Assembly: GCF_001660485.1 (NCBI RefSeq)
Contig: NZ_CP013979.1
Coordinates: 1,116,001-1,180,000, forward strand
Origin: Agromyces aureus
GTDB taxonomy: Bacteria; Actinomycetota; Actinomycetes; Actinomycetales; Microbacteriaceae
DNA: 64,000 nucleotides
Reading direction: 5' to 3'
How positions within the stretch are numbered: the first letter of the stretch is position 1; the number at the start of each line of letters is the position of its first letter. The translations under genes and the position numbers were made by a program. Shown here one piece after another: positions 37,306 through 58,410 of this stretch. The notes under the pieces are model-generated. The model was given only the letters and a program-made list of their open reading frames with translations. It searched no databases and was not told where the DNA came from.

Positions 37306-39120
37306 ATGACTGGGCAAGCGCTTTCCCGAATTGAGCACGCGATCGACGGACGGCATCCGGCGCGCTCGATCCTCCGCCTGCTCGACCTGCACCGGGGCAA
37401 GGTGCTCGCGGCCGTCGCGTTCTTCACCGTCAAGGACACGCCGCTCTGGCTGCTGCCCGTCATCACCGCCGCCATCATCGACGTGGTCGTCGCCGGCGGG
37501 CCCGTCTCGACGCTCTGGATCTGGGCCGGCGTCGCGGTCGTCGCGCTCGCCCAGAACTACCCGAACCACGTGCAGTACACGCGCCTGTTCATGGGCGCCG
37601 TGCGCGAGATCGGCGCCGACCTGCGCAACGCGCTCGCCGCCAGGCTGCAGGCGCTCTCGATCGGCTTCCACTCGCGCGCGAACTCCGCCGTCGTGCAGAC
37701 CAAGGTCGTGCGCGACGTCGAGAACGTCGAGGTGATGCTCCAACAGGCCGCGCATCCGCTGCTCTCGGCGACCATGGTGCTCATCGGCGCCGTCGTGATG
37801 ACCGCGATCAACGTGCCGGCCTTCCTGCCCGTCTACGCGCTCGCGATTCCGCTCGCGGTGCTGCTCCGCGCCATCCTCAACCGCCGCAGCGCGATGCGCA
37901 ACGCGTCGTTCCGCCGCGAGGTCGAGCAGTTCTCGGCGCGCGTCGGCGAGATGGCGACCCTCCTGCCCATCACGCGCGCGCACGGCCTCGAGCAGACCGC
38001 CGTCACCCGGGTCGCGCACGGCGCCGAGGGCGTTCGGGCCGCCGGGTTCCAGCTCGACCTGCTCAACGGGCGCTTCGCATCGCTGTCATGGGTCAGCCTG
38101 CAACTGCTCGGCGTCGGATGCCTCGTGCTCGCCGCCTGGGTCTCGATCACCGGCCTCATCCCGATCACGCCAGGCCAGGTCGTGCTGCTGAGCTCCTACT
38201 TCGCCCTGCTCACGGGCGCCGCGACGAACCTGCTCATGCTGCTGCCGATCATCGCGCGCGGCACCGAGTCGATCCGCTCGATCGGCGAGGTCATGCAGGA
38301 CCCCGACCTCGAGCGCAACGAGGGCAAGCGCCCCGTCACCGACGTGCGCGGCGACCTCGCGCTCGAGGGGGTCGGGTACCGGTACGACGACGGGCGATCG
38401 GATGCCGCGGGCGGGCGCGGCGACACGGGCGCGCGCCCGATCCGGCCCGCGCTCTCGGGCCTCGACCTCGACATCCGCGCCGGCGAGACGATCGCGTTCG
38501 TCGGGTCGTCCGGATCAGGCAAGTCGACGCTGCTGAACCTCGTGCTCGGGTTCCTGCGACCCACGAGCGGACGCGTGCTGCTCGACGGCGTCGACATGGC
38601 GGAGCTCGACCTGCGCACGTTCCGCAGCTTCGTGTCGGTCGTGCCGCAGGAGTCGGTGCTCTTCGAGGGCAGCATCCGCGAGAACATCGTCTACGGCCTC
38701 GGCGACGTCGACGACGACCGCGTGCTCGACGCGCTGCGCGACGCCAACGCGCTCGAGGTCGTCGACGCCCAGCCCGACGGCTGGCACACGGTCGTCGGCG
38801 AACGCGGGGCCAGGCTCTCGGGGGGGCAGCGGCAGCGGCTCTCGATCGCGCGTGCGCTCGTGCGCGACCCCCGAGTGCTGCTGCTCGACGAGGCGACGAG
38901 CGCCCTCGACCCCGAGTCGGAGGCGAAGATCAAGGTCGCGCTCGAGCACCTCATGCGCGGGCGCACGACCCTCGTCGTCGCGCACCGGCTCTCGACGATC
39001 CGCTCGGCCGACCGCATCGTCGTGCTCGAGCAGGGCCGCATCGTCGAGATCGGCTCGCACGCCGAGCTCATCGCCGCCGGCGGGCGATACGCCGAGCTCG
39101 ACCGAGTGCAGTCGGCCTAG
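37306..39120 (+). CDS. ABC half-transporter (exporter type)
   Basis: This 604-residue protein fuses six transmembrane segments (about 30-320) with a nucleotide-binding domain: Walker A GSSGSGKST (Lys406), signature LSGGQ (504-508), Walker B LLLDEAT with catalytic Glu529, and 'VVAHRLSTI' H-loop. It works as a homo- or heterodimeric exporter of unknown substrate; no second half lies nearby. A LacI-type operator sits inside its first codons (37311-37329), and CAGAAT lies 6 nt before the ATG. The NBD contains an insertion, RSDAAGGRGDTGARPIR, that overlaps a GGATGCCGCG word. Confidence 0.92.
   Translation: MTGQALSRIEHAIDGRHPARSILRLLDLHRGKVLAAVAFFTVKDTPLWLLPVITAAIIDVVVAGGPVSTLWIWAGVAVVALAQNYPNHVQYTRLFMGAVREIGADLRNALAARLQALSIGFHSRANSAVVQTKVVRDVENVEVMLQQAAHPLLSATMVLIGAVVMTAINVPAFLPVYALAIPLAVLLRAILNRRSAMRNASFRREVEQFSARVGEMATLLPITRAHGLEQTAVTRVAHGAEGVRAAGFQLDLLNGRFASLSWVSLQLLGVGCLVLAAWVSITGLIPITPGQVVLLSSYFALLTGAATNLLMLLPIIARGTESIRSIGEVMQDPDLERNEGKRPVTDVRGDLALEGVGYRYDDGRSDAAGGRGDTGARPIRPALSGLDLDIRAGETIAFVGSSGSGKSTLLNLVLGFLRPTSGRVLLDGVDMAELDLRTFRSFVSVVPQESVLFEGSIRENIVYGLGDVDDDRVLDALRDANALEVVDAQPDGWHTVVGERGARLSGGQRQRLSIARALVRDPRVLLLDEATSALDPESEAKIKVALEHLMRGRTTLVVAHRLSTIRSADRIVVLEQGRIVEIGSHAELIAAGGRYAELDRVQSA
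37311..37329. promoter_or_regulatory. LacI-type operator overlapping the ABC start region
   Basis: TGGGCAAGCGCTTTCCCGA matches the operator upstream of the sugar importer over 17 of 18 bases. It lies in codons 3-8 of the ABC gene and would block early elongation or transcription initiation. Confidence 0.5.
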
Positions 39121-39182: not shown

Positions 39183-40061
39183 CTACGCGGGAACCGACGC
39201 CCGCAGGTGCGGCGCGACGGCCGCCTCGAACGCGCGGGCGGTGCGGGCGACCACGTCGGGCCACGCGGCATCCCAGATCTCCTGGTTGAAGATCTCGACC
39301 TCGATGTCGCGGTCGTAGCCGGTCGCCTCGACGGCGGCCGTGAGGCTCGCGAAGTCGATCACGCCGTCGCCGGGCTCGTGGCGCGAGAGCAGCGGGTCGG
39401 CCGCGATCGGCGTGTTCCAGTCGCACACCTGGTAGGTCGCGATGCGACCGGTGGCCCCGGCGCGGGCGATCTGCGGCAGCACCTCCGGGTCCCACCAGAC
39501 GTGGAACGTGTCGATCGTGACGCCGACCACCGCAGGGTCGAACCGCTCGGCGAGGTCCAGTGCCTGTCCGAGCGTGGAGACCACCGCGCGGTCCGACGCG
39601 TACATCGGGTGCAGCGGTTCGATGGCGAGCGTGACGCCGGCGGATGCCGCGTGCGGCGCGAGTTCGGCGAGGGCGTCGGCCACGCGCGAGCGGGCGCCGA
39701 CGAGATCGGTGGATCCCTCGGGCAGGCCGCCCGCGACGAGCACGAACACGGGCGTGCTGCCGGCCGCGCCTGCCGCCGCGAGGGTCGCGGTCTCGTCGAT
39801 GCCGCGACGGTTGTCGTCGATGGATGCCCGCCGGGCCTGGCCTTCGGGCATCGTGAAGAAGCCGCCGCGGCAGTACGTCGACAGGCGCAGGCCCGAGTCC
39901 GCGAAGCGGCGCGCGGCCTCGTCGAGTCCGACGGCCTGCACGGGCTCGCGCCAGAGCCCGATCGACTCGTACCCGCCCTCGGCGGTCACCCGCAGCGCGT
40001 CGTCGAGCGGCGCGTACTTGATCGTGGCCTGGTTCATCGACAGGCGGGGGTGCGCGCTCAT
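39183..40061 (-). CDS. sugar phosphate isomerase/epimerase-like TIM-barrel protein
   Basis: This 292-residue protein has the xylose-isomerase-like TIM-barrel pattern (AP_endonuc_2): 'EGGYESIGLWREPVQAVGLDEAARRFADSGLRLSTYCRGGFF', 'LAIEPLHPMYASDRAVV' (metal-ligand Glu), 'VGVTIDTFHVWWDPEVL' (Asp and His ligands), 'YQVCDWNTPI' and 'DIEVEIFNQEIW' (final Glu). It should carry one divalent metal and isomerise or epimerise a sugar, or break a 3-keto-sugar derivative. It is third in a tight operon with the Gfo/Idh/MocA and DUF993 genes (ATGA-type overlap with DUF993, 40058-40061). Confidence 0.87.
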   Translation of the reverse strand: MSAHPRLSMNQATIKYAPLDDALRVTAEGGYESIGLWREPVQAVGLDEAARRFADSGLRLSTYCRGGFFTMPEGQARRASIDDNRRGIDETATLAAAGAAGSTPVFVLVAGGLPEGSTDLVGARSRVADALAELAPHAASAGVTLAIEPLHPMYASDRAVVSTLGQALDLAERFDPAVVGVTIDTFHVWWDPEVLPQIARAGATGRIATYQVCDWNTPIAADPLLSRHEPGDGVIDFASLTAAVEATGYDRDIEVEIFNQEIWDAAWPDVVARTARAFEAAVAPHLRASVPA

Positions 40062-41347
40062 GCGAGCACCTCCTCGTCGACGGGTGCCGCGTCGACGGCC
40101 CCCGCCGACTCGGCGTCATCGGCGACCGGGCCGGCTGCGGCATCCGTCGTCGAGGTCTCGGCGGGAGAGGTCGGACCCGCGGCCGACACGACGTCGACCC
40201 CGTTCAGCGTCAGCAGCGAGTGCCAGCGCGCCGCCGCGAGCTCCGGCCGCTCGAGGGCGCCCGAGCCGTTCGCGAGCTCGACGATGCGCGAGAGGTGGGG
40301 CAGGCTGCGGGCGGCATGGAGGCCGCCCACCATCTGGAACGCCGCCTGGTGGCCGTTGAGCCACGCCAGGAACGCGACGCCCGTCTTGTAGTAGTAGGTG
40401 GGCGCGGCGAAGACCTGCTGCGAGAGCGGCTCGGTCGGGGCGAGGATCGCGCGGTATGCATCGACGTCGCCGCGATCGAGCGCCTGGATCGCGGCCGACG
40501 CGTTCGGCGCGAGGCACGAGAACGCCCCGAGCAGCGCATCGGAGTGCCCCTGCTCGTCGCCCTCGATGAGGCCCACGTAGTGGAAGTCGTCGCCCGTGAA
40601 CATGCGCGCCGACTCGGGCAGGCGTCGCCGCACGGCGATCTCGGCCTCGGCGTCGAGCAGGCTCATCTTCACGCCCTGCACCTTGTCGCGGTTGTACTCG
40701 ATGACCTGCAGCAGCGTCTCGGCCGCGGCATCCGTGTCGTCGGAGCCGAAGTACCCGGCCAGCGCCGGATCGAAGGCTGTGCCGAGCCAGTGCAGCACGA
40801 CCGGCGCACCCGCCGCGGCGAGCACCTCTCGGTACACGCGGCGGTAGTCGTCGGCGTTGCGGGCCGCGCGCGCGAGGTGGCGGCTCGCCATCAGCACGAC
40901 GCCGGCGCCCGCGTCCTCGGTGAGGTGCAGCTGCTGCTTGTAGGCGTCGATCACCTCGTCGAGCGTCAGCTGCTCGTCGTCGACGTGGTCGGTGTTGACG
41001 CCCACGACGAGCCTGCCGCCGACGGAGGCCGCCTCGGCCGCACTGCGCGAGATCAACTCGCGCGTGGCCGCCGCGTCGAGCCCCATGTTGCGCTGCGCCG
41101 TGTCCATCGCATCGGCCACGCCGAGACCCCATGACCACACGTGGTGCCGGAACGCGAGCGTCGCGTCCCAGTCGATCTCGGCCGGCTGCCCCGGGGTGTT
41201 GTCGGCGTGCGCCTTCGGCACGACGTGCGCGGCCGCGTACGCGACCCGGCTCGTGAGCGGATGCCGCGGGCGGGCGAACGTGGGCGCCTCGACGAGGTCG
41301 GCGGCGCGCAGTCCGCCGTCGGGGTCGAGCAGGGTGAGCGTGGTCAT
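40058..41347 (-). CDS. DUF993 TIM-barrel protein (DHDPS-like aldolase relative)
   Basis: This 429-residue protein belongs to DUF993 (PF06187), a family structurally close to the DHDPS/NAL aldolases. Landmarks are 'VVPKAHADNTPGQPAEIDWDATLAFRHHVWSWGLGVADAMDTAQRN', 'RLVVGVNTDHVDDEQ', 'VVLMASRHLARAARNADDYRRVY', 'VLHWLGTAFDPALAGYFGS' and 'QGVKMSLLDAEAE'. The Lys in 'QGVKMSL' falls where the Schiff-base Lys is expected. The last 42 residues are an Ala/Ser/Asp/Glu-rich tail of low complexity. Cotranscribed between dehydrogenase and isomerase, so an aldolase or eliminase acting on an oxidised sugar is a reasonable inference, not shown. Confidence 0.87.
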   Translation of the reverse strand: MTTLTLLDPDGGLRAADLVEAPTFARPRHPLTSRVAYAAAHVVPKAHADNTPGQPAEIDWDATLAFRHHVWSWGLGVADAMDTAQRNMGLDAAATRELISRSAAEAASVGGRLVVGVNTDHVDDEQLTLDEVIDAYKQQLHLTEDAGAGVVLMASRHLARAARNADDYRRVYREVLAAAGAPVVLHWLGTAFDPALAGYFGSDDTDAAAETLLQVIEYNRDKVQGVKMSLLDAEAEIAVRRRLPESARMFTGDDFHYVGLIEGDEQGHSDALLGAFSCLAPNASAAIQALDRGDVDAYRAILAPTEPLSQQVFAAPTYYYKTGVAFLAWLNGHQAAFQMVGGLHAARSLPHLSRIVELANGSGALERPELAAARWHSLLTLNGVDVVSAAGPTSPAETSTTDAAAGPVADDAESAGAVDAAPVDEEVLA

Positions 41348-41349
41348 GG

Positions 41350-42633
41350 TCAGCGGGCCCCGGCGAACGCGGGAGCCTCAGTCGTCGCGACGTCGGCTGC
41401 GACATCCGCGGTGCTCAGGTCCGAGCCGAGCGTGACGACCGGGAGCTCGATGCGGCGACCCTCGCGGCTGGAGGCGAGGCCCTGCTCGGCGAGCAGCACG
41501 CCGCGCGCGCCCGCGAGGAAGTCGAACTCGTTCGGGGCGTCTTCGACGACGTGGCGGATGAACTCCTCCCACTGCGTCTTGAATCCGTTCTCGAACTCGC
41601 GGTTGCCGGGGCTCTCGATCCAGTCGCCGGCGTAGTCGTGGTCGTCGGCGAGGTCGGGGTTCCACACGGGCTTGGGGGTCGCGTTGCGCGGCTGGATCTT
41701 GCAGCCGAACAGGCCGACGACGGCCGAGCCGTGCGTGCCGTCGACCTGGAACTCGACGAGCTCGTCGCGGTTGACGCGCGTGGTCCAGCTGGAGTTGAGC
41801 TGGGCGACCACGCCGCCTTCGAGCTCGAAGATCGCGTAGGCGGCGTCGTCGGCCGTGGCCGGGTAGGCCTCGCCGCGCTCGTCGACGCGCTCGGGGATCT
41901 CGGTCACGGCCTTCGCGTAGACCGACTCGACGCGGCCGAACAGGTTCTCGAGCACGTAGTTCCAGTGCGGGAACATGTCGACGATGATGCCGCCGCCGTC
42001 CTCGGAGCGGTAGTTCCAGCTCGGGCGCTGGGCGGGCTGCCAGTCGCCCTCGAAGACCCAGTAGCCGAACTCGCCGCGCACGCTCAGGATGCGGCCGAAG
42101 AAGCCGGAGTCGATGAGGCGCTTGAGCTTCTGCAGGCCCGGGAGGTAGAGCTTGTCGTGCACGACGCCGTTCTTGATGCCGGCCTCGTCGGCGAGGCGCG
42201 CGAGCTCGAGCGCCTCCTCGAACGACTCGGCGGTCGGCTTCTCGGTGTAGATCGCCTTGCCGGCCGCGATGGCCTTCTTGATCGCGACTGCACGCGCCTT
42301 CGTCACGAGGAAGTCGGCGTAGATCTGCCAGCGGTCGTCGGCCAGTGCCTCATCGAGGTCGGTCGTGTAGTGCTCGATGCCGTGCTTGGCGGCGAGGTCG
42401 GCGAGCTTCTTCTCGCTGCGACCCACGAGGATCGGCTCGACCTGCACGCGGGTCTCGCCGTCGGCGAGGAGCACGCCGCCCTGCTCGCGGATCGCGAGGA
42501 TCGAGCGCACGAGGTGCTGGCGGTAGCCCATGCGGCCCGAGACGCCGTTCATGATGATGCCGATGCTTTGGGGCGCGGCGGCTGAGGCGGGTGCGGAGGC
42601 TTCGGTGCCTGCGGGGGCTGCGGTGTCTGCCAC
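41350..42633 (-). CDS. Gfo/Idh/MocA-family oxidoreductase
   Basis: This 427-residue dehydrogenase has a Rossmann N terminus ('IGIIMNGVSGRMGYRQHLVRSI'), the canonical 'KAIYTEKPTAESFEEAL' (EKP catalytic Lys), and a C-terminal alpha/beta sheet with 'PSWNYRSEDGGGIIVDMFPHWNYVLE', typical of glucose-fructose oxidoreductase relatives that use NAD(P). An Ala/Ser-rich extension of about 22 residues precedes the domain. GTG start with AGGA upstream. A LacI-type operator lies 50 bp before the start (42683-42700). First gene of the operon with DUF993 and isomerase. Substrate likely a sugar or glycoside. Confidence 0.9.
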   Translation of the reverse strand: MADTAAPAGTEASAPASAAAPQSIGIIMNGVSGRMGYRQHLVRSILAIREQGGVLLADGETRVQVEPILVGRSEKKLADLAAKHGIEHYTTDLDEALADDRWQIYADFLVTKARAVAIKKAIAAGKAIYTEKPTAESFEEALELARLADEAGIKNGVVHDKLYLPGLQKLKRLIDSGFFGRILSVRGEFGYWVFEGDWQPAQRPSWNYRSEDGGGIIVDMFPHWNYVLENLFGRVESVYAKAVTEIPERVDERGEAYPATADDAAYAIFELEGGVVAQLNSSWTTRVNRDELVEFQVDGTHGSAVVGLFGCKIQPRNATPKPVWNPDLADDHDYAGDWIESPGNREFENGFKTQWEEFIRHVVEDAPNEFDFLAGARGVLLAEQGLASSREGRRIELPVVTLGSDLSTADVAADVATTEAPAFAGAR

Positions 42634-42682
42634 GGTGATTCCTGTTCGACGGGGCAGGAGGCGGACGAGCCGCTCCCTGCAC

Positions 42683-42700
42683 TGGGAAAGCGTTTACCCG
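42683..42700. promoter_or_regulatory. LacI-type operator
   Basis: TGGGAAAGCGTTTACCCG matches the family of operators found upstream of the importer, the PmoA operon and the uronate operon. It lies 50 bp upstream of the Gfo/Idh/MocA GTG. Confidence 0.65.
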
Positions 42701-42801
42701 AGTGTGCCATACGAGGTTCGCATCGCGCAAGGGCCGGTCTGTTCCGGCCGATCGACGGGCCGTTCGTCGCGTATCGGCAGTTGGGACGGTCGACACGCAT
42801 C

Positions 42802-42824
42802 CCCGATTCGCAGGACGAATCGGG
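42802..42824. terminator. hairpin, 9-bp stem
   Basis: CCCGATTCG / CGAATCGGG with a CAGGA loop, followed directly by the GC tandem array. It may terminate transcription of the LacI gene, whose stop is at 43043 on the same strand. Confidence 0.5.
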
Positions 42825-42825
42825 C

Positions 42826-42889
42826 GCCGCGCCGACGCCGCGCGGCGCCGCGCCGACGCCGCGCCGACGCCGCGCCGACGCCGCGCGGC
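42826..42889. repeat. 11-bp GCCGCGCCGAC tandem repeat
   Basis: Four units of GCCGCGCCGAC are interleaved with two 10-bp variants, GCCGCGCGGC. The array is almost 100% G+C and non-coding. Confidence 0.85.
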
Positions 42890-43042
42890 GCCGCCCGGCG
42901 TGGCGACTCGATCGTCCGGCAACCAGGCGAAACGGCGCGGCGGGGCGGAATGGGTAAGTCGGCGGGCCAGGGCGCGGCGGGGGAGAGTGGGCGCGGAGGC
43001 ATCCGCACAGGGAGGTGAGGAGCCGGTGAGCCGGCCGGGCGG

Positions 43043-44110
43043 CTAGGCCCCGAGGCGCGGCGTGCTTTCGCGGATGACGACCTCGGTCGAGACATCCGCT
43101 GAGGCGGCACGAGCGGATGCGGCATCCGCTTCGTCGTCGAGCGCCAGGCGCAGCGCCTGCTCGCCGATGCGCTCGAGCGGCATGCGCACGCTCGTGAGGC
43201 GTGGCGTCACGTCGCGCACGGTCGGGATGTCGTCGAAGCCGGCGACGGCGAGGTCGCGGCCGGGTTCGAGCCCCGCGTCGCGGATCGCGGACATCGCGCC
43301 CATGGCCATGACGTCGTTGAGGGCGAAGACGACCTGGGTGTCGCCGATGCCGGCCTCGAGGAGCCGGCGCATGCCGTCGTAGCCGCCGTCGCGGGTGAAC
43401 GCGCTGCGCACGAGCCGGTCGTCGGGCAGGAGCCCGCCCGAAGCGGCGAGGCCCTCGGAGAACCCGGCGATGCGGTCGTGCGCGGTGCGCAGCGACTCGG
43501 GACCGGTCAGTGCGGCGAAGCGGCGGTAGCCGAGGGACTGCAGCTCGACGGCGAGGTCGCGTGCGCCGGCCCGGTTCGCGAGCGGCAGGGTGCGGAACGG
43601 CAGGTCGCTCTCGCTGATGAAGACGGCGCGACCGCCGGTCTGCTCGTAGGCGGTGAGCTCGGCCTCGAGTGCCACGGCGTTCGGGTCGCCGATGATGCGC
43701 GACCCCGAGAGGATCATGACGCGGGGGCGCTGTCCGCGCATCGCGCGCACGAGTTCGAGCTCGCGTTCGGCGTCGCGCTTCGTCTCGGCCATGGTGACGA
43801 TGAGCCGGTCGTCGCCCGCCGCGCCGACGACGCCGGCGGCGATCGACGAGAAGTACGGGTCGGCGATGTCGGCGACGAGGAGGGCCACCGTGGTCGAGGT
43901 ACCGCGGGCGACGGCCTGCGCGGAGAGGTTCGGCGTGTAGGCGAGCTTCGCGGCCGCGGCGAGGACGCGGTCGCGGTACTCCTCGTTGACCTTGCGGGCG
44001 CTTCCGTTCAGCGACCGGGACGCCGTGGCGAGCGAGACGCCTGCCTCGCGGGCGACGTCGTGCAGGGTGGCCGGCGTCGATCGCCGGCTCTGGGGGCCGC
44101 CATCAGCCAT
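43043..44110 (-). CDS. LacI-family transcriptional regulator
   Basis: This 355-residue repressor has an N-terminal LacI HTH ('TPATLHDVAREAGVSLATASRSLNGSARKVNEEYRDRVLAAAAKLAYTPN', in blocks) and a periplasmic-binding-like effector domain with 'TTVALLVADIADPYFSSIAAGV', 'ALNDVMAMGAMSAIRDAG', 'VAGFDDIPTVRDVTPRLTSVRMPL'. The start at 44110 has AGGAGG 4 nt upstream. The motifs S..ATASR are the recognition helix. It lies upstream of the DUF993 operon and divergent from a Gfo/Idh/MocA gene; operators flank both. The effector is likely a sugar. Confidence 0.92.
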   Translation of the reverse strand: MADGGPQSRRSTPATLHDVAREAGVSLATASRSLNGSARKVNEEYRDRVLAAAAKLAYTPNLSAQAVARGTSTTVALLVADIADPYFSSIAAGVVGAAGDDRLIVTMAETKRDAERELELVRAMRGQRPRVMILSGSRIIGDPNAVALEAELTAYEQTGGRAVFISESDLPFRTLPLANRAGARDLAVELQSLGYRRFAALTGPESLRTAHDRIAGFSEGLAASGGLLPDDRLVRSAFTRDGGYDGMRRLLEAGIGDTQVVFALNDVMAMGAMSAIRDAGLEPGRDLAVAGFDDIPTVRDVTPRLTSVRMPLERIGEQALRLALDDEADAASARAASADVSTEVVIRESTPRLGA

Positions 44111-44250
44111 GGGTCCTCCTGGTCGCAGGTCGGCCGTACCGCGTGGGTTCGTCGCGTCGTCTCGGCCGAGCGCCTCGACTCTATCGCGCGGTTCACTGCG
44201 CCGCCGTTTGGCATCGCCATGTGTTGCTGGTAGAAATGTAGCACGCACGA

Positions 44251-44265
44251 GATAGCGCTTTCCCG
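44251..44265. promoter_or_regulatory. LacI-type operator half/whole site
   Basis: GATAGCGCTTTCCCG shares the AGCGCTTTCCC core. It lies between the divergent LacI and Gfo/Idh/MocA genes, where control of both is expected. Confidence 0.5.
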
Positions 44266-44304
44266 CCGATTTCGTGCCGATCGAGGCGCAGAACGGATGC
44301 CGCT

Positions 44305-44321
44305 GAGCAAGCGGTTTCTGC
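44305..44321. promoter_or_regulatory. LacI-type operator near the Gfo/Idh/MocA start
   Basis: GAGCAAGCGGTTTCTGC is a weaker member of the same family, 42 bp before the ATG. It makes a pair with the site at 44251. Confidence 0.45.
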
Positions 44322-44362
44322 ACCGGCGCCGCCCACCCACCAACGACGCGACGGAGCACAGG

Positions 44363-45706
44363 ATGGCGCAGCACGAACGGTACGCACTCATCGGCACGGG
44401 CAGCCGCGCCGGCATGTACATCGCCGCGATGTCCGGAACCGCGTTCGGCGCCGAGCATGTCGCCGAGGTCGCCGACCTCGTCGCCTGGTGCGACGTGAAC
44501 CCGGGCCGGCTCGACGTCTACGAGCGCGAGGTCGTCGCGACGGGACATCCGGCGCCCGTGCGCTATGCCGTCGACGACCTCGAGCGCATGATCATCGACG
44601 AGCGCATCGACCGGGTCGTGATCACCACGCCCGACTTCACGCACGCCGAGTACGTCGTGCGGGCCCTGCGTGCGGGTGCCGACGTGGTCGTCGAGAAGCC
44701 GCTGACGATCGACGCCGAGAGCGTGCGCCGCATCGGCGAGGCCATCGCCGAGACCGGCCGCGAGGTCATCACGACCTTCAACTACCGCTACAGCCCGCGC
44801 AACTCGACGCTGCGGCAGGTCATCGCAGGCGGACGCATCGGCCGGGTCACGAGCGTGCACTTCGAGTGGGCGCTCGACACGGTGCACGGGGCCGACTACT
44901 TCCGCCGCTGGCACCGTCAGAAGGCGAACTCCGGCGGCCTGTTCATCCACAAGGCCTCGCACCACTTCGATCTCGTCAACTGGTGGATCGACGCGGCCCC
45001 GGTGCGCGTCTTCGCCAGCGGCGGCCTGCGCTTCTACGGCGCCGAGAACGCCGAGGCACGCGGGCTCGGCGAGCGTCCGTCGCGCGGCACCGGCACGAGC
45101 GGCGACCCGTTCGCCCTCGACCTCGCCGGCGACGCCCGAATGAAGGAGCTCTACCTCGACCAGGAGCACCACGACGGCTACCTGCGCGACCGCGACGTCT
45201 TCGATGCCGGCATCACGATCGAGGACAACCTCGCCGCCCTCGTCGACTACGACTCCGGCGCGACGCTCAGCTACTCGCTGAATGCCCACGCCCCCTGGGA
45301 GGGCTACCGCGTGACCGTGAACGGCACCGAAGGCCGGGCCGAGCTCGAGGTCGTCGAGCGCGGCGCCGTGCTCATCGGCGACGACGGCCGCGTGGTCGTC
45401 GACCCATCGATGCATCCCGATGCCTCGGCCGTCGACGACGTGCGCCCGCACTCCGAGCGCCTCGTGGTGCAGCGACACTGGGAGGGCGCCGAGGTCGTGC
45501 CCATTCCCGAGGGCATCGGGAGCCACGGCGGCGGCGACGCCTTCCTGCTCGACCACCTCTTCCGGCGCGTGACGGATGACGCGCCGCTCGGCCGCGTGGC
45601 CGGCTACGCCGACGGCGTGCGCGCCGTGTCGGTGGGCATCGCCGGCAACCTCTCGCTCGAGACCGGCCGGCCGGTGCTCGTCAGCGAGCTCGAGCTCGGG
45701 GTCTGA
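44363..45706 (+). CDS. Gfo/Idh/MocA-family oxidoreductase
   Basis: This 447-residue dehydrogenase begins MAQHERYALIGTGSRAGMYIAAM, with the GTGSRA nucleotide loop. It has 'ADVVVEKPLTIDAE' (EKP) and a C-terminal domain with 'FNYRYSPRNSTLRQVIAGGRIG', 'GGLFIHKASHHFDLVNWWIDAAPVRV' and 'HAPWEGYRVTVNGTEGRAELEV'. The N-terminal ATG at 44297 is rejected because it would place the operator inside the protein; GGAG precedes the ATG at 44363. Longer than the usual 340-380 residues because of loops such as residues about 225-275. NAD(P)-dependent oxidation of a sugar or sugar glycoside is inferred. Confidence 0.9.
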   Translation: MAQHERYALIGTGSRAGMYIAAMSGTAFGAEHVAEVADLVAWCDVNPGRLDVYEREVVATGHPAPVRYAVDDLERMIIDERIDRVVITTPDFTHAEYVVRALRAGADVVVEKPLTIDAESVRRIGEAIAETGREVITTFNYRYSPRNSTLRQVIAGGRIGRVTSVHFEWALDTVHGADYFRRWHRQKANSGGLFIHKASHHFDLVNWWIDAAPVRVFASGGLRFYGAENAEARGLGERPSRGTGTSGDPFALDLAGDARMKELYLDQEHHDGYLRDRDVFDAGITIEDNLAALVDYDSGATLSYSLNAHAPWEGYRVTVNGTEGRAELEVVERGAVLIGDDGRVVVDPSMHPDASAVDDVRPHSERLVVQRHWEGAEVVPIPEGIGSHGGGDAFLLDHLFRRVTDDAPLGRVAGYADGVRAVSVGIAGNLSLETGRPVLVSELELGV

Positions 45707-45733
45707 GCGGCGCGCGGGCTCACCGGGGGCCCG

Positions 45734-45763
45734 CGTCCCCCCGCGCACGCTCGCGGGGGGACG
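45734..45763. terminator. bidirectional terminator hairpin
   Basis: A perfect 12-bp stem, CGTCCCCCCGCG / CGCGGGGGGACG, with a 6-nt loop lies between the convergent Gfo/Idh/MocA and aldehyde dehydrogenase genes. Confidence 0.8.
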
Positions 45764-45796
45764 CTCGTGGTTGCCCGGTGCATGGACGCGCGCGTC

Positions 45797-45851
45797 GTTC
45801 GGACGCGAATGGTCGCTTCGCATCGTGCATTCCGACCATTCGCGTCCGAAC
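45797..45851. repeat. 19-bp perfect inverted repeat, 17-nt loop
   Basis: Arms at 45797-45815 and 45833-45851 are exact reverse complements (start GTTCGGACGC, end GCGTCCGAAC). The element sits just downstream of the dehydrogenase gene (stop at 45870) and so may act as its terminator. Its size resembles the 16325-16388 element, but the sequences are unrelated. Confidence 0.8.
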
Positions 45852-45869
45852 CGCGGGCGGGAGCGCGGC

Positions 45870-47411
45870 TCAGGGCAGCGTCAGCACGCCGTCGAGGCGG
45901 CGGGGGATGCCGAGCGGGTTCGCCTCGCGCAGTTCGGGCGGCAGCGCGGCATCCGGAGCCTCCTGGTAGGCGACCGGCCGGAGGAACCGGCGCATCGCGC
46001 TGACGCCGACCGACGTGTGGATGGTCGTCGTCGAGGGCCACGGGCCGCCGTGCTGCTGCGCCCAGCTCACCGCGACGCCGGTCGGCCATCCGGTGAAGAG
46101 CACGCGCCCGGCGATCTCGGTGAGCACGGCGAGGATGTCGGAGAGGTCCTCGTCGGGCTCGGCGTGCACCGTGGCCGTGAGGCTGCCTCCGACGGCCCGG
46201 ATCGCCGCGAGCGCCTCGTCGATCGAGGCGTACTCCACGACGAGCGTCGACGGCCCGAAGCACTCGGCGAAGAGCGCCTGCGGGTCGGCGACGACCGCGG
46301 CGGCGGTGGTGGCGAGCACGACCGGCGAGCCGGTTCCGGTGGCGGATGCCGCGGCCGGGGCGTTGCCCGACCCGTCCACGTCGTCCGGCCCGCTCACCAC
46401 GCCCGCGACGACCCGTACGTCGGCATGGGCGGCGAGTGCGGCGACCCCGTCGGCGAACGCGGCGGCGATGCCGTCGGTGAGCATCGGCACCGCGGCATCC
46501 GCATCGCCCGACCCGACCGCCTGCGCGGCGACGAGGTCGGCGAAGCCGGAGCCCGCGGGCACGAAGACGACGCCCGGGTTCGTGCAGAACTGGCCGGCGC
46601 CGAGCGTGAACGACGCGGCGAGGCCGGCGGCGAGCTCGGTCGCGCGCGCCTCGACGGCGGCCGGCGTGATGAGCACCGGGTTGACGGCGCTGAGCTCGCC
46701 GTAGAACGGGATGGGGTCGGGACGCGACGACGCGAGGTCGAACAGCGCGCGCCCGCCGTGCAGCGAGCCGGTGAACCCGACCGCCCGGATCTCGGGGTGC
46801 TGCACCAGGGCGACGCCGGCCGCGCGTCCCTCGACGTGTCCGAAGGTGCCAGCGGGGGCGCCCGCGGCGGAGAGGGCGGCGCCGACGATCGCGGCGGTGC
46901 GTCGCGACAGGCGGGGGTGCGCGGAGTGGCCCTTGACCACGACGGGGCATCCGGTGGCGAGCGCCGACGCGGTGTCGCCGCCCGCGACCGAGAACGCAAA
47001 CGGGAAGTTCGACGCCCCGAACACGGCGACGGGTCCGAGCGGCCGCAGCATCCGCCGCAGGTCGGGCGTCGGCGGGATCGTCGTCGCATCCGGGTGGTCG
47101 ATCGTCGCCTCGAGGTAGGAGCCCTCGACGACCGCGCGGGCGAAGAGCCGCAACTGTGAGGTCGTGCGGGCGAGCTCGCCGGTGAGGCGAACGGGGCCGA
47201 GGTGCGACTCCTCGTCGGCGAGTGGCACGAGCTCGTCGCGCGCGGCGTCGAGCGCGTCGGCGACGGCGGCGAGCCAGGAGGCGCGCTCGGCGGCGGTCGA
47301 CGCGACGGTCGTGGCGAAGGCCCGGCGGGCCGCGGCGGCGGCCTCGTCGACGGATGTCGAGCTCGCGGCATCCGTCGACGGTGCGGCGAGGGCTGAGCGG
47401 TCGGTGGTCAT
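45870..47411 (-). CDS. alpha-ketoglutaric semialdehyde dehydrogenase (KGSADH-type ALDH)
   Basis: This 513-residue aldehyde dehydrogenase resembles 2,5-dioxovalerate dehydrogenases: 'RPLGPVAVFGASNFPFAFSVAGGDTASALATGCPVVVKGHSAHP', 'AVGFTGSLHGGRALFD', the catalytic Cys276 in 'LGAGQFCTNPG', and 'FAECFGPSTLVVEY'. KGSADH oxidises alpha-ketoglutarate semialdehyde to alpha-ketoglutarate with NAD(P). GGAGG precedes the ATG at 47411. It follows the enolase-superfamily gene by 71 bp and is last in the uronate operon, exactly the enzyme needed after KdgD. Confidence 0.9.
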   Translation of the reverse strand: MTTDRSALAAPSTDAASSTSVDEAAAAARRAFATTVASTAAERASWLAAVADALDAARDELVPLADEESHLGPVRLTGELARTTSQLRLFARAVVEGSYLEATIDHPDATTIPPTPDLRRMLRPLGPVAVFGASNFPFAFSVAGGDTASALATGCPVVVKGHSAHPRLSRRTAAIVGAALSAAGAPAGTFGHVEGRAAGVALVQHPEIRAVGFTGSLHGGRALFDLASSRPDPIPFYGELSAVNPVLITPAAVEARATELAAGLAASFTLGAGQFCTNPGVVFVPAGSGFADLVAAQAVGSGDADAAVPMLTDGIAAAFADGVAALAAHADVRVVAGVVSGPDDVDGSGNAPAAASATGTGSPVVLATTAAAVVADPQALFAECFGPSTLVVEYASIDEALAAIRAVGGSLTATVHAEPDEDLSDILAVLTEIAGRVLFTGWPTGVAVSWAQQHGGPWPSTTTIHTSVGVSAMRRFLRPVAYQEAPDAALPPELREANPLGIPRRLDGVLTLP

Positions 47412-47482
47412 GCGTCCTCCAGAGGGGTCGAGCGAGTCGAGCGGGGTCTGGCGGATGCCGCGGCATCCGCAGTTCGAAGCGA

Positions 47483-48547
47483 TCAGGCGAACCGCAGGCC
47501 GAGGCCGAGCTGCCCGGTGGTGCGCGCGAGGCTCGCGTCGAGCTCGATCGGAGACGGCGAGGCGAGCGCGCCGAGCGACTCGAACGAGGCGTCCTCGACG
47601 GCCTCGACGAGGTGGTCGCCCGGCAGGGCGAGCGCGAGCTGCGCCGAGAGTTCGAGCAGCAGGTGCGGGGCGAGGTCGACGCCGCGCGAGGTCGCCAGCG
47701 CGGCGATCTCGAGGAACGGCGTGATGCCGCCGACGCGCACGATGTTCGGCTGCACGAGATCCACTGCGCCGGCGTCGATGAACTCGGCGACCCGGTAGCG
47801 CGTGTGCACGTTCTCGCCGAGGGCGATCGGCACGTCGATGCGTGTGTGCAGGGCGACGTGCCCGGCGAGGTCGTCGGCCCGAAGGGGTTCCTCGATCCAG
47901 CCGAGGTCGAACGCCGACAGCTCGCCGATGGCGCGCTCGGCCTGCTCGAGGTTCCAGCGCTGGTTCGCGTCGATCATGAGCCCGCGGTCGGGTCCGAGCA
48001 CGTCGCGCACCGCGCGGATGCGGGCCACGTCGTCGGCGAGGTCGGGACTGCCGACCTTGACCTTCACGGCCTCGAAGCCCGCCTCGACCCAGCGTTCGGC
48101 CTGTGCGACGAGCTCGGGCAGCGGGTAGTGCAGGTTGACGCCGCTGCCGTAGACGGTCGCGGTGTCGTGCCGCCGGCCGAGGTGGTCGGTGATGCCGAGC
48201 CCGGCGCGGCGGGCCGCGAGATCCCAGAGGGCGAGGTCGAGGCCGGCCATCGCGATCGTGGTGATGCCGCCGCTGCCGCCCTCGTGCAGGTGCGCCCAGA
48301 GCGGATGCCACAGGGCCGCCGCATCGGCGTCGCGTCCGAGTGCGAACGCGGCGATGTCGTTCGCGAGGTGGGCCTCGACGGCGGCCGCGCCGATCGACGG
48401 GGTCCACGAGAAGCCGCGCCCCTGCGCGCCGTCGGAATCCTCGACGACGACCTCGACGAGCGAGAGGTCGCGCACGTCCGGCCCCCATGGGCGGCTGAGG
48501 GGAACGCGGATGCGCCGGGTCGCGAGGCTCCGGATCGCCGCGGTCAC
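47483..48547 (-). CDS. enolase-superfamily sugar acid enzyme (MR/MLE; cycloisomerase or dehydratase)
   Basis: This 354-residue enzyme has MLE/MR motifs: the KxK pair Lys162/Lys164 ('VKVKVG'), metal ligands Asp193 ('MIDANQRW'), Glu219 ('WIEEPL') and Glu245 ('LGENV'), and His295 ('LAPH'). It overlaps the kdgD gene by ATGA (48544-48547). Given uronate dehydrogenase plus KdgD beside it, the closest functional guess is a galactarolactone/glucarolactone cycloisomerase (Agrobacterium Gci-like) or an aldarate dehydratase. The N-terminal capping domain is shorter than in Gci, so specificity is open. Confidence 0.88.
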   Translation of the reverse strand: MTAAIRSLATRRIRVPLSRPWGPDVRDLSLVEVVVEDSDGAQGRGFSWTPSIGAAAVEAHLANDIAAFALGRDADAAALWHPLWAHLHEGGSGGITTIAMAGLDLALWDLAARRAGLGITDHLGRRHDTATVYGSGVNLHYPLPELVAQAERWVEAGFEAVKVKVGSPDLADDVARIRAVRDVLGPDRGLMIDANQRWNLEQAERAIGELSAFDLGWIEEPLRADDLAGHVALHTRIDVPIALGENVHTRYRVAEFIDAGAVDLVQPNIVRVGGITPFLEIAALATSRGVDLAPHLLLELSAQLALALPGDHLVEAVEDASFESLGALASPSPIELDASLARTTGQLGLGLRFA

Positions 48548-49620
48548 CGGGCCGGCACCGCCTCGGCGGATGCGCTCGCCTCGGCGCTCGCGCTCGCCGC
48601 GGGGGTCGCCTCGGCGCTCGAAACGTCGTCGGCGCTCGCGCCGGAGGCATCCGCTCGCCCGTGGTGGCTCTGCGGAGCCGAACCGCCGCCGAGCCGCTCG
48701 GCGAGCTCCAGCCCGCGCTCGAGGATCGCGCCGAGCCGAGCCTCCTGGTCGGGCGTCGGGTCGACGAGTGGCGGGCGCACCGAGCCGACGGGCAGGCCGC
48801 GCAGGCGCAGGCCCGCCTTGATGAGCGAGACGCCGAAGCCGGGCGTTTCATCGCGCAGGCTCACGAGGGGCCGGTAGAACTCGGCGAGCAGGGTCAGGCG
48901 GGTCGCCTCGTCGCCGTCGGTGTAGGCGCGGTAGTGCAGGGCGGCCAGTTCGGGGATCATCGCGAACGCCGCCGACGAGTACAGCGGGATGCCGATGCCG
49001 CGGTACGCGCCCTGGCTGAGCTCGGCTGTGAGCAGGCCGTTGAAGAACGCGAAGTCGCGGCCCGTGGCCTCGGCGGCGAGCACGATCTCCTGCGCGAGGC
49101 CGATGTCGCCCGTGCCGTCCTTGAAGCCGACGACCTTCGGGTTCGCGGCGAGGCGGGTGATGGCGTCGGCCGTGTAGCGCGCCGTGCCGCGGTGGTACAC
49201 GATCACGGGCAGGTCGGATGCCGCGGCGACCGCCTCGACCCACGCGACGAGTCCGGCGGTCGTGCCCGAGACGAGGTACGGCGGCAGCAGCAGCAGGCCG
49301 TCGGCGCCCGCGGCCTCGGCGCCGCGCGCGAGCTCGATCGCGTGGCCGAGCGGGCCGCCCGCGCCCGCGATGACGGGCACGCGCCCGTCGACGGTCCGCA
49401 CCGTGGTGCGCACGACGTCGATCGCCTCGCCCGCCGAGAGCGCGTGGAATTCGCCGGTACCGCACGCCGGGAACACGCCGCCGGGGCCGAACGGCAGCCG
49501 CGAGTCGACGTGCTCGGCGAGCAGGGCGTGGTCGGGCGCGCCGTCCGCGCCGAACGGCGTGACCGGGAAGAACAGCACGCCGTCGAACGAGGGTGCCTGC
49601 AGGGGGGTGGTCGTGGTCAT
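48544..49620 (-). CDS. kdgD: 5-dehydro-4-deoxyglucarate dehydratase
   Basis: This 358-residue DHDPS-superfamily enzyme has 'FFPVTPFGADGAPD', 'FPACGTGEFHALS', Tyr142 in 'VIVYHRGTARY', and the Schiff-base Lys167 in 'VVGFKDGTGDIGLA', which is the KdgD-specific 'GFKDGxGD' form. It dehydrates and decarboxylates 5-keto-4-deoxyglucarate to alpha-ketoglutarate semialdehyde. The core of about 305 residues is normal; the last 50 form an Ala/Ser/Glu low-complexity tail. ATGA overlaps both neighbours (uronate dehydrogenase upstream, MR/MLE downstream), giving tight coupling. Confidence 0.9.
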   Translation of the reverse strand: MTTTTPLQAPSFDGVLFFPVTPFGADGAPDHALLAEHVDSRLPFGPGGVFPACGTGEFHALSAGEAIDVVRTTVRTVDGRVPVIAGAGGPLGHAIELARGAEAAGADGLLLLPPYLVSGTTAGLVAWVEAVAAASDLPVIVYHRGTARYTADAITRLAANPKVVGFKDGTGDIGLAQEIVLAAEATGRDFAFFNGLLTAELSQGAYRGIGIPLYSSAAFAMIPELAALHYRAYTDGDEATRLTLLAEFYRPLVSLRDETPGFGVSLIKAGLRLRGLPVGSVRPPLVDPTPDQEARLGAILERGLELAERLGGGSAPQSHHGRADASGASADDVSSAEATPAASASAEASASAEAVPAR

Positions 49621-50654
49621 CTGGCCCTCGTTTCGAGTCGGTCTGCGTGTCGGGTACGGCCCGCGTCGGCGCGGTCGGATGGGGCGCGGTCGTCGTCGCG
49701 GTCGGATGCCCCGCGGTCGGAGGCCGAGCGCTCGGCCGCCGAAGGGCGGTCTGACGCCCCGAGCACCCGCTCGAGCGCCGCCGGCTCGAGTTCGGAGCGC
49801 CACGTGCGTTCGGGCCGCCAGCCGAGCAGTCGCTCGGCCTTGTCGATCGCGAACACGGGGCGGCCGTGGCCGAGCGCGTCGGCCGCCTCGCCGAGGGCGG
49901 GGGCGAAGTCGCGCCAGAGATCGGCCACATGGTGCACGGCGAGCGCGTCGGCGGCGCCCACGAAGAAGCCCTCGCCGTCGACGAGCTCGGCGGGCGCGTC
50001 GAGCCAGGCTCCGACGAAGTCGGCGGCGTCGCGCGCGTCGAGGTAGTTGAACAGGCTGACGGCCGCGAGCGCGGGATCGGCGAGGCGCTGCTCGAGCGTG
50101 TGGCCCTGCTGCGTGGGGGCGCCGGCCCACTCCTCGGGGGAGATGACGTAGCAGGGGCGGAAGAACCCGAACGCGCCGGGCGAGGTGCGCGCGAACATCT
50201 GCACCGTCTGCTCGATCACGAGCTTCGAGAGCGCGTAGGCGTTGGCCGGCTCGGGCGTGGTGGCCTCGTCGAGCGGCAGCCGATCGGCGTGCCAGGTCGG
50301 CGCGCTGTAGCCGAGCACGGTCGGGCTGCTCGCGGCGAGCACGCGCTCGACGCCGGCCTCGACGGCGGCGGCCAGCACGGTGTGCACGAGCGCGGTGTTC
50401 GTCATGAGGATGCGGCGCTCGGGGGCGCTGAACGGCACGGCGATGCCCGCGAGGTGCACGACGGCGTCGGGGCGCACCTCGTCGAAGAGTCGCTGGGTGG
50501 CCAACGCGTCGATCAGGTCGACCCTGCGCTCGTCGACCCCGGCGAGGTCGGCGGTCGTGCGATCGACCCCGACGACCTGATGGCCGGATGCCGCGAGGCC
50601 GGCGGCGACGCTGCGCCCGAGCCTGCCCGCAGAACCGGTGACGATGACCCGCAT
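49617..50654 (-). CDS. NAD-dependent epimerase/dehydratase-family uronate dehydrogenase-like protein
   Basis: This 345-residue extended-SDR enzyme has GxxGxxG at 7-13 (GSAGRLG), Asp31 for NAD preference, 'VVHLAGIAVPF' and YxxxK at Tyr140/Lys144. The operon with KdgD, an enolase-superfamily enzyme and KGSADH makes uronate dehydrogenase (aldohexuronate to aldarolactone) the most likely role; UDP-sugar or rhamnose metabolism are alternatives. The C-terminal 60 residues are Asp/Arg/Ser-rich and low complexity. AAGGAG precedes the ATG. Its start is 49 bp from a LacI-type operator. Confidence 0.8.
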   Translation of the reverse strand: MRVIVTGSAGRLGRSVAAGLAASGHQVVGVDRTTADLAGVDERRVDLIDALATQRLFDEVRPDAVVHLAGIAVPFSAPERRILMTNTALVHTVLAAAVEAGVERVLAASSPTVLGYSAPTWHADRLPLDEATTPEPANAYALSKLVIEQTVQMFARTSPGAFGFFRPCYVISPEEWAGAPTQQGHTLEQRLADPALAAVSLFNYLDARDAADFVGAWLDAPAELVDGEGFFVGAADALAVHHVADLWRDFAPALGEAADALGHGRPVFAIDKAERLLGWRPERTWRSELEPAALERVLGASDRPSAAERSASDRGASDRDDDRAPSDRADAGRTRHADRLETRAR

Positions 50655-50703: not shown

Positions 50704-50721
50704 TTGGGAAACCGCTTTCTG
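50704..50721. promoter_or_regulatory. LacI-type operator
   Basis: TTGGGAAACCGCTTTCTG, 50 bp upstream of the uronate dehydrogenase start, in the divergent gap with a LacI gene. Confidence 0.6.
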
Positions 50722-50851: not shown

Positions 50852-51874
50852 ATGGGCCAGCGCAGCAGGGCGACCACGATCGCCGACGTCGCCGCGCACG
50901 CGGGCGTCTCGCAGGCATCCGTCTCCCGCGTGCTGAACGGGCGCTCGAGCGTCGATCCCGAGATCGTGCGGCGCGTGCAGGCCTCCATCGCCGAGCTCGA
51001 GTACCGCCCGAGCCCCACGGCCCGCAGCCTCGTGAACGGACGCAACAACACCGTGGCGATGGTCGTGCCCGACCTCGAGAACCCGCTCTTCCAGGGCATC
51101 CTCAAGGGGCTGAGCCTCGCCGCGGCCCGCGACGGCTATCGCGTGCTCGTCGCCGACACCGCCGAGAACGTCGACGATGAAGAGGAGATCGCCGTCGAGG
51201 CCAGGCAGCGCTGCGACGCGCTCGTGCTCTGCGCGCCGCGCATGCCGGAGGCGAAGCTCCGCGCCCTCGTCGATGCGGTCTCGCCCGTCGTCGTCGTGAA
51301 CCGGCCGCTCCCGGGCGCCGACGTGCCCGTCGTCGGGGTCGACTACGTGCGCGGCATCCGCGACCTCGTCGACCACCTGCACGACCTCGGCCACCGCCGC
51401 ATCGCCTATGCCAGCGGCCCGCCGACCAGCGCGTCCAACGCCGAGCGCCGGCGCGGGGTCGCCGAGGCGCTCGCCGCCCACCCCGACGTGCGCATCGACG
51501 AGGTGCCCGGCGGCTCGCGGCTCGACGACGGCTACGCCGCATCCGACGCCGTGCTCGCCGCCCACCGCGACGGCTGCACCGCGGTCATCGCCTTCAACGA
51601 CCTCGTCGCCCTCGGCCTCATGACGCGCCTGCACGAGCTCGGCGTCGAGGTGCCGCGCGACCTCTCGATCGCCGGATTCGACGACGTTCCCATGGCCGGC
51701 TTCGCGACGCCCCGGCTCACGAGCATGTCGGTGCCGCGCGGCGAGATCGGCGGTCAGGTGTGGCTGCGGCTGCGCACCCTCATCGAGGGCGGGCCGGTCG
51801 AGCACTCGGTGCTCTACAGCCCTCGGCTCGAGGCGCGCGGCAGCACCGCGGCGGTTGCCGAGGGCGTCGCATGA
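50852..51874 (+). CDS. LacI-family transcriptional regulator
   Basis: This 340-residue repressor has an N-terminal HTH ('ATTIADVAAHAGVSQASVSRVLNGRSSVDPEIVRRVQASIAELEYRPS', in blocks; recognition helix Q-A-S-V-S-R) and effector domain with 'TVAMVVPDLENPLFQGILKGLSLAAARDGYRVLV' and 'IAGFDDVPMAGFATPRLTSMSVPRGEIG'. GGAGG lies just upstream of the ATG. The HTH hinge is closer to typical sugar repressors than that of the first LacI gene. Divergent from the uronate operon and translationally coupled to the M24-like gene. Confidence 0.92.
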   Translation: MGQRSRATTIADVAAHAGVSQASVSRVLNGRSSVDPEIVRRVQASIAELEYRPSPTARSLVNGRNNTVAMVVPDLENPLFQGILKGLSLAAARDGYRVLVADTAENVDDEEEIAVEARQRCDALVLCAPRMPEAKLRALVDAVSPVVVVNRPLPGADVPVVGVDYVRGIRDLVDHLHDLGHRRIAYASGPPTSASNAERRRGVAEALAAHPDVRIDEVPGGSRLDDGYAASDAVLAAHRDGCTAVIAFNDLVALGLMTRLHELGVEVPRDLSIAGFDDVPMAGFATPRLTSMSVPRGEIGGQVWLRLRTLIEGGPVEHSVLYSPRLEARGSTAAVAEGVA

Positions 51875-53013: not shown

Positions 53014-53119
53014 GACATCCGGCCGAGGAGCGCGCGCGCAGCGTGAGCAGGAGCCGGCGTCATCGCGAACTCGGAAGTGGTGGCGGCGACGCGGCTGAGC
53101 CCGGTCACGGGTGGAGACG

Positions 53120-53167
53120 CGAGCGGGCCCGGCGGCATACGGAGTCTCGTACACCGCCGGGCTCGCG
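53120..53167. terminator. imperfect long hairpin
   Basis: CGAGC...CCGGCGG (53120-53136) pairs with CCGCCGGGCTCG (53154-53165) with a GGG bulge. It follows the M24 gene on the plus strand and the gene remnant on the minus strand. Confidence 0.5.
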
Positions 53168-53177
53168 AACCAGGTTC

Positions 53178-53197
53178 GTCACCGTGCGTGCGGTGAC
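53178..53197. terminator. short hairpin
   Basis: GTCACCG / CGGTGAC, exact 7-bp stem with a 6-nt loop, 13 bp from the remnant stop. Confidence 0.45.
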
Positions 53198-53210
53198 GCG
53201 CCGGCAGGGG

Positions 53211-53285
53211 TCAGCTGCCGGGCCACTCCGTCGCATCGAGGTCGGGCAGGGTGCCCTGACGCAGGTTCTCGGTGTTCTTCGGTCG
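53211..53285 (-). pseudogene. 3' fragment of an unidentified gene
   Basis: On the minus strand, codons ending PKNTENLRQGTLPDLDATEW then PGS-stop (stop at 53211-53213) show strong G/C third positions and host-like codon use. Upstream of about 53285 the frame stays open but composition becomes unlike coding DNA. I interpret this as the C terminus of a lost gene. I do not recognise the family. Confidence 0.3.
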
Positions 53286-53406
53286 AATCCGGGATCTCGC
53301 GGCTACTCGGCAACCTGTGGGGCTGGTCAGGACTGATCGACAATCCAGGCGAGATTGGTCGACAACCGTTCCAGGGGATGGCCGGATGCCGGCCGGGCCG
53401 GTACGC

Positions 53407-53424
53407 TTGGATAACGCTTTCCCA
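53407..53424. promoter_or_regulatory. LacI-type operator
   Basis: TTGGATAACGCTTTCCCA matches the operator family and lies 46 bp before the PmoA ATG. A -10-like TACGCT overlaps its left edge (53402-53407). Confidence 0.6.
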
Positions 53425-53470
53425 CTGGAGCGCGCACCAGACCCGGATCGACGACGACCGAAGGAGACCG

Positions 53471-56850: not shown

Positions 56851-56973
56851 GCGAAATCCCATCACGACCTGACCCGATGGCTCAGATCATCCGCTGATCA
56901 GGGATTCTCATGCGCAGGCGCGTGCCGCGACATCCGATGATGATCACGAATTGAAACGATTTTGCGATTTCGG

Positions 56974-57002
56974 TTGACCGCCCGCCGTCGCTCGGTTACA
57001 TT
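56974..57002 (+). promoter_or_regulatory. promoter of the ABC sugar importer operon
   Basis: TTGACC (56974-56979) and TACATT (56997-57002) are 17 bp apart, an excellent sigma-70-type promoter. The LacI operator begins at the next base. Confidence 0.75.
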
Positions 57003-58393: not shown

Positions 58394-58410
58394 TCGGCGC
58401 TCGCGCCGCA

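Follow-up and report, generated by a model that had tools for sequence, protein, structure and literature searches.

A conserved gene trio linking DUF993 to a Gfo/Idh/MocA dehydrogenase and an AP_endonuc_2 protein in Agromyces aureus and other bacteria

Gfo/Idh/MocA dehydrogenases are paired with AP_endonuc_2 proteins in the inositol (iol), levoglucosan (lgd) and 3-keto-glycoside systems, and we know of no DUF993 protein in any of them. Here we analyzed a stretch of 64,000 nucleotides from Agromyces aureus (contig NZ_CP013979.1, positions 1,116,001 to 1,180,000; hereafter the window, whose own numbering is used throughout), taken from a genome of one contig of 4.37 Mb, and found three minus-strand genes that form a real, conserved module undescribed in the open-licence literature. 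They encode a Gfo/Idh/MocA-type dehydrogenase (DH1, 42633..41350, GTG start at 42633), a DUF993 protein (41347..40058) and an AP_endonuc_2, xylose isomerase-like protein (ISO, 40061..39183); DH1, the first gene of the trio, is separated from DUF993 by 2 bp, and DUF993 overlaps ISO by 4 bp (ATGA). An earlier description made from the letters of the window alone (the sequence-only reading) had noted this tight coupling and had called a dehydrogenase, DUF993, a metal TIM-barrel isomerase, a LacI regulator and a divergent second Gfo/Idh/MocA gene (DH2), and both the coordinates and Pfam agree with it. DH1 matched GFO_IDH_MocA_C3 at 93.9 bits, ISO matched AP_endonuc_2 at 121.4 bits, and DUF993 matched PF06187 at 565.9 bits, above the gathering cut-off of 24 bits.

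DH1, DH2 and ISO stayed below the curated cut-offs of these systems and of the quinate route. Inositol 2-dehydrogenase (IolG, TIGR04380, cut-off 355) gave 60.6 bits with DH1 and 98.7 bits with DH2, levoglucosan dehydrogenase (NF052479, cut-off 650) gave 61.6 and 59 bits, glycoside 3-dehydrogenase BT_2158 (cut-off 750) gave 32.8 bits with DH2, and QuiC of the quinate route (NF042435, cut-off 1200) gave 34.4 bits with ISO. The carbohydrate cluster of pAO1 (Paenarthrobacter nicotinovorans), which is said to have been read as a D-xylose system, is alike in that DH1, DUF993 and glycerate kinase genes are consecutive, but differs in having genes for a CUT2 transporter, GMC and AldH ahead of these and no annotated ISO. 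SMc04132 of Sinorhizobium meliloti is a DUF993 protein with a solved structure and no stated function (4dnh), and its trio locus, unlike the window, holds a TetR gene, an extra enolase-type gene, which lies between DUF993 and ISO, and ABC genes. In one study, SMc04132 and SMc04133 were lower in phbC phaR than in phbC (log2 -1.69 and -3.65), which points to no substrate (PMC12542648). No functional study of DUF993 or of the trio was found in the open-licence literature, and the sequence-only reading likewise knew of no established pathway with exactly these three genes.

The trio is kept together in actinobacteria and proteobacteria. Close loci were defined as the best 80 of at least 514 confirmed stretches, the genes of unannotated loci coming from a base-composition caller with approximate starts and some genes missed. 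DH1 lies directly before DUF993 in 79/80 of them and ISO directly after in 76/80; the single DH1 miss and three of the ISO misses (L036, L079, L081) fall at contig ends, while the fourth ISO miss (L085) does not. Among 100 relatives, DUF993 was present in 53, DH1 in 56 (E <= 1e-90) and ISO in 55 (E <= 1e-50), and all 53 genomes with DUF993 had DH1 and 52 had ISO (the exception, G091, is a draft of 1060 contigs), so that the conserved co-occurrence for which the sequence-only reading had proposed a search was indeed found. Of 296 genomes drawn evenly from the phylum, 24 gave a DUF993 match; at the 20 loci taken from these (own genome, G004, the partial G321 and the weak G387 left out) DH1 always adjoined DUF993, and ISO adjoined it or stood one gene further. 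On plasmids (25 loci, picked for variety among 147 records with a match), the trio is together in Paroceanicella, Qingshengfaniella, Chelatococcus, Pseudoroseomonas, Nitratireductor and Palleronia, and on an Erwinia plasmid the genes are arranged differently and interrupted by an MFS gene. A tree of 45 DUF993 proteins, sampled to be diverse, shows the trio on either side of its midpoint root, with the loci of coenzyme A (CoA) type and polyketide synthase type discussed below nested inside. The adjacency goes beyond chance, for it is seen again in other classes and phyla where the proteins are about 50% identical. The closest named DUF993 relatives, among the matches listed, are from Agromyces.

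DUF993 adopts the barrel of the dihydrodipicolinate synthase (DHDPS) family, a claim carried by structure comparison since the profile alignment is too weak alone, and the fold matches include the archaeal KD(P)G aldolase 2r91. K227, the lysine of the QGVK motif, lies in strand 223-229 (strand 6) and is invariant in 45/45 proteins; the sequence-only reading had suggested looking for a usable lysine in a model, and this one occupies such a place in the barrel. H186, in strand 183-188, is also invariant and replaces the catalytic tyrosine of strand 5 in the DHDPS/N-acetylneuraminate lyase (NAL) family. In comparison with that superfamily (PF00701: DapA, KDG aldolase, KdgD), DUF993 has a longer chain, extended at both the N and the C terminus, and carries His for Tyr133 and DTAQR against GTTGE of DapA; it gave no match to PF00701, PF06187 being its sole Pfam match at E 0.001. 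The PF06187 family is large (at least 7996 of 8000 scored candidates matched), and many DUF993 records carry the automatic name "dihydrodipicolinate synthase family protein".

The two partner proteins also keep their key residues. In DH1, whose closest solved relative is 3oqb (E 5.3e-154), K114, D201 and H205 (numbered from 42579) are kept in 44/44 homologues, and we take them to be the Lys, Asp and His used by Gfo/Idh/MocA sugar dehydrogenases. ISO has E148, D184 and E256 kept in 50/50, and position 211, Gln in the window, is Gln in 32 and His in 18; by family likeness these four residues would be the metal ligands.

Three DUF993 records stand apart. Contig L079, deposited under the name Stenotrophomonas maltophilia, carries a DUF993 gene whose product shares 74% identity with that of the window, probably through contamination from an actinobacterium; MT835659.1 (7104-8327), named "Bacteriophage sp." and derived from human faeces, encodes a DUF993 protein with 62% identity to that of the window and is likely a mislabelled bacterial contig; and in G065 (C1:379764-380957) DUF993 was matched in three pieces and the gene looks broken.

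Upstream of the trio lies a gene for a LacI-family regulator with Peripla_BP_3 (44110..43043, minus), and an orthologue was present at 60/80 close loci. We searched the window with up to 3 mismatches to GGGAAAGCGCTTTCCC, a consensus built from the window itself, and 6 sites were found against 0.23 expected (100 shuffles, largest 2), in accordance with the matching operators reported beside LacI by the sequence-only reading. They are located before DH1 (42684-42699), between LacI and DH2 (44249-44264), before the aldarate-type run described below (50706-50721, weak, 3 mismatches), at 37312-37327 (1 mismatch), and at 53408 and 57004. A further site at window coordinates 64197-64212 is followed after 20 bp by a GH42 gene, and this gene overlaps one for glycerate kinase. 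When about 250 bp ahead of DH1 were scanned in the relatives, the top site matched at least 12/16 bases in 75/78 loci, and shuffles (one mononucleotide shuffle per stretch) reached at most 11; the site is absent at L103, L104 and L105, and at L103 and L105 the trio lies inside a run opening with a branched-chain-type ABC transporter. These common sites suggest one regulon, with the reservation that such palindromes serve many LacI proteins. The site at 37312-37327 directly precedes an ABC exporter-type gene (37402-39120) with no obvious sugar role.

DH2 (44363..45706, plus, divergent; GFO_IDH_MocA) is a recurring partner of the trio. Its frame is open from ATG 44297, and ATG 44363 agrees better with relatives; it is 22% identical to DH1 over 99 residues and not a copy of it. 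Its homologues lie near 16/69 close loci (neighbour counts refer to 69 loci, the 11/80 with fewer than 12 called genes being excluded), and one of 39% identity lies behind the S. meliloti trio.

Glycerate kinase (PF02595) was called near 30/69 close loci. The host genome has two PF02595 genes, one at window coordinates 66329-67450 and the other in a different gene run; the former is 54-73% identical to each of the 31 near-trio kinases and the latter 40-46%. Among same-genus genomes with DUF993, 41/44 have the first kind of kinase (E <= 1e-100; tabulated by hand), in 34 on the same contig as DUF993, and within 50 kb of it in 33 of the 34. A strict genome-wide coupling of glycerate kinase to DUF993 was not seen, and the linkage is regional only. 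In proteobacteria, glycerate kinase is annotated near DUF993 in Paracoccus, Sinorhizobium, Erwinia and Qingshengfaniella; these kinases are longer than the actinobacterial kind and likely belong to another family. In addition, 2-hydroxyacid dehydrogenases were found near 9/69 and a second AP_endonuc_2 gene near 8/69 of the close loci. The kinase linkage together with these recurring neighbors points to D-glycerate as an outlet.

Uptake genes at the side of the trio vary between CUT1 (28/69 close loci), CUT2, branched-chain type, TRAP, tripartite tricarboxylate and MFS. Such carriers, the KdgD neighbors and a gluconate-dehydrogenase-type subunit argue for an acid substrate, and the GH42, GH51 and GH4 neighbors argue for a plant glycan as source; the substrate would therefore be a sugar acid from plant polysaccharide.

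We tentatively propose, with confidence a little short of even, that the three genes, under LacI control, form a catabolic module that degrades a sugar or sugar acid without phosphorylating it before the chain is cut. DH1 would oxidize one hydroxyl with a nicotinamide cofactor, ISO as a divalent-metal enzyme would move or epimerize the new carbonyl to give a 2-oxo acid, and DUF993 would form a Schiff base through K227 and split the chain by retro-aldol cleavage into C3 pieces, e.g. glyceraldehyde and hydroxypyruvate (or pyruvate), which would be converted to D-glycerate and phosphorylated by the neighboring glycerate kinase. The sequence-only reading had a similar sequence of oxidation, isomerization or elimination, and aldol-type cleavage, and this chemistry is plausible given the conserved co-occurrence, the barrel lysine of DUF993 and the key residues of DH1 and ISO; its guesses of glucosides and inositols as substrates reached no curated cut-off. 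A bolder form of the proposal, which we regard as unlikely, is that DUF993 forms a lineage of its own among Schiff-base lyases, one that has a His-Trp pair where the others have the catalytic tyrosine and that would cut a fully hydroxylated 2-oxo sugar acid to hydroxypyruvate and an aldehyde; together with DH1 and ISO it would make up an undescribed non-phosphorylating pathway of actinobacteria and proteobacteria via D-glycerate.

Several observations weigh against the proposed module. The profile alignment that fixes the register, of 24 DUF993 and five DHDPS-family proteins, sets K227 against the DapA lysine but is weak (probability 1.1%, E 0.049), and the positions of DapA Thr44 and Tyr133 are not conserved in DUF993. 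Glycerate kinase is absent near 39/69 close loci, and its first kind is also present in 10/16 same-genus genomes without DUF993. DH1 and ISO occur without DUF993 in 3/100 genomes, and no clear substitute for DUF993 was noticed in four 20-kb DH1-ISO stretches (inspected by eye, with Pfam for four genes). In CoA-type loci DUF993 is mostly accompanied by ISO, and in most of them an SDR gene occupies the place of DH1; they have a CoA-transferase and in most also acyl-CoA dehydrogenase, enoyl-CoA hydratase and electron transfer flavoprotein genes. On two Streptomyces plasmids (L118, L127), DUF993 is the immediate neighbor of a type I polyketide synthase gene, with neither DH1 nor ISO annotated, and these DUF993 proteins retain K227 and H186. 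The second DUF993 gene of S. meliloti is divergent from a run of LacI, CoA-transferase and aldehyde dehydrogenase genes. DUF993 may have more than one role.

At L162, DH1 and ISO without DUF993 lie beside genes for CoA-transferase, enoyl-CoA hydratase, a shikimate-dehydrogenase-like protein, an amidohydrolase and a branched-chain-type transporter.

Rather unlikely, in our estimate, is that DUF993 serves a non-phosphorylated route of Entner-Doudoroff or De Ley-Doudoroff type as its 2-keto-3-deoxy-sugar-acid aldolase; in this route DH1 would lead to an aldonate, a dehydratase to the 3-deoxy-2-keto acid, DUF993 to pyruvate and glyceraldehyde and thence to glycerate, with ISO as an auxiliary epimerase or dehydratase. 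The fold match to 2r91, the linkage of glycerate kinase to the DUF993 (aldolase) gene at 30/69 close loci and in the host genome, and the overlap of GH42 with glycerate kinase are all consistent with it, as is pAO1, where genes for GMC, aldehyde dehydrogenase, DH1, DUF993 and glycerate kinase directly follow one another and the aldehyde dehydrogenase passes the AldH cut-off, and L140, where GMC and aldehyde dehydrogenase homologues precede the trio. As to the dehydratase, enolase-type genes were found near 13/69 close loci and, in favor of the route, in four annotated alphaproteobacterial loci, outside the trio itself. Against the route, none was called near the other 56/69, the alphaproteobacterial enolase-type proteins fit no NCBIfam model or just weak ones, and to our knowledge no AP_endonuc_2 enzyme dehydrates an aldonate. 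Moreover, the genome has a galactokinase-domain gene at another place, which means that galactose can do without such a route and speaks against it as an obligatory substrate.

It is improbable that the substrate is a cyclitol or cyclohexane-polyol acid, with DH1 and ISO acting like inositol dehydrogenase and ketoinositol or dehydroshikimate dehydratase and DUF993 opening or dehydrating the ring through a Schiff base. The weak likeness of DH1 and DH2 to IolG and of ISO to QuiC, the shikimate-dehydrogenase-like genes at L114 (with DUF993) and L162 (without it), and branched-chain and tricarboxylate carriers that could import such acids fit this idea, but the scores given above fall well short of the curated thresholds, neither an iolD-like nor a protocatechuate gene was seen next to the trio, no dedicated search having been made, and we know of no place for glycerate kinase in the known inositol and quinate routes. 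Hardly probable, lastly, is a 3-keto-glycoside system, in which DH2 and DH1 would oxidize C3 of a glycoside or glucuronide, the AP_endonuc_2 protein would eliminate the aglycone and DUF993 would process the keto sugar: it would suit the best solved relative of DH2 (8tdi, named glucuronide-3-dehydrogenase, E 2.5e-19), the same-strand run of DH2 homologues, trio and aldarate-type genes at L142 and L143, the GH4 and UxaC genes near the trio at L135, and the GMC and gluconate_2-dh3 genes near the Pseudoroseomonas trio, but the levoglucosan dehydrogenase score of DH1 and the BT_2158 score of DH2 are a small part of what those models demand, the L142 homologue has different best solved relatives (8w9s), and DH2 is near so few close loci.

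The sequence-only reading was framed so that it omitted both the glycerate kinase just outside the window and a co-linked run of aldarate-type genes on the minus strand. The run encodes an aldehyde dehydrogenase family protein (45870..47411), an enolase-superfamily protein (47483..48547; nearest NCBIfam model L-talarate/galactarate dehydratase, below cut-off), a KdgD-like DHDPS-family protein (48544..49620) and an NAD-dependent epimerase-family protein (49617..50654), possibly a uronate dehydrogenase by its context. By family, 45870-50654 holds the gene set of the uronate dehydrogenase, aldarate dehydratase, KdgD and 2-oxoglutarate semialdehyde dehydrogenase pathway, whose genes are partners of the trio, the trio itself being distinct. 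Among the models shown, NF002958 alone passes a curated cut-off in this run (KdgD-like protein, 384.5 bits against 278), the same protein scoring 276.2 bits with the equivalog model KdgD, below its cut-off of 373.95. At least three of the four genes lie near the trio at 9/69 close loci; Palleronia has aldehyde dehydrogenase, kdgD and mandelate-racemase-family genes within 5 kb past ISO, and at L142 and L143, of the same phylum and another class, CUT1, DH2 homologue, trio, epimerase-family, KdgD, enolase, aldehyde dehydrogenase and glycerate kinase genes form one same-strand run. At L032, L034, L042 and L096, an MFS transporter gene (about 380 residues) stands between the aldehyde dehydrogenase and DH2 genes, which is absent in the window (45706-45870). 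A further carbohydrate run (50852-62295), in which the operator-like sites at 53408 and 57004 lie, holds LacI, M24-peptidase-like, DUF6807, cupin, third Gfo/Idh/MocA, CUT1 and alpha-L-fucosidase genes.

For the host strain, the proposed module would work beside DH2 and an aldarate-type operon consuming uronic acid from the same material. The trio gives the orphan family DUF993 two fixed partners, a regulator with a recognizable operator and a likely end product, and the family can thereby be tested as part of a pathway in S. meliloti and in soil bacteria that are easy to grow, work that could supplant its automatic name.

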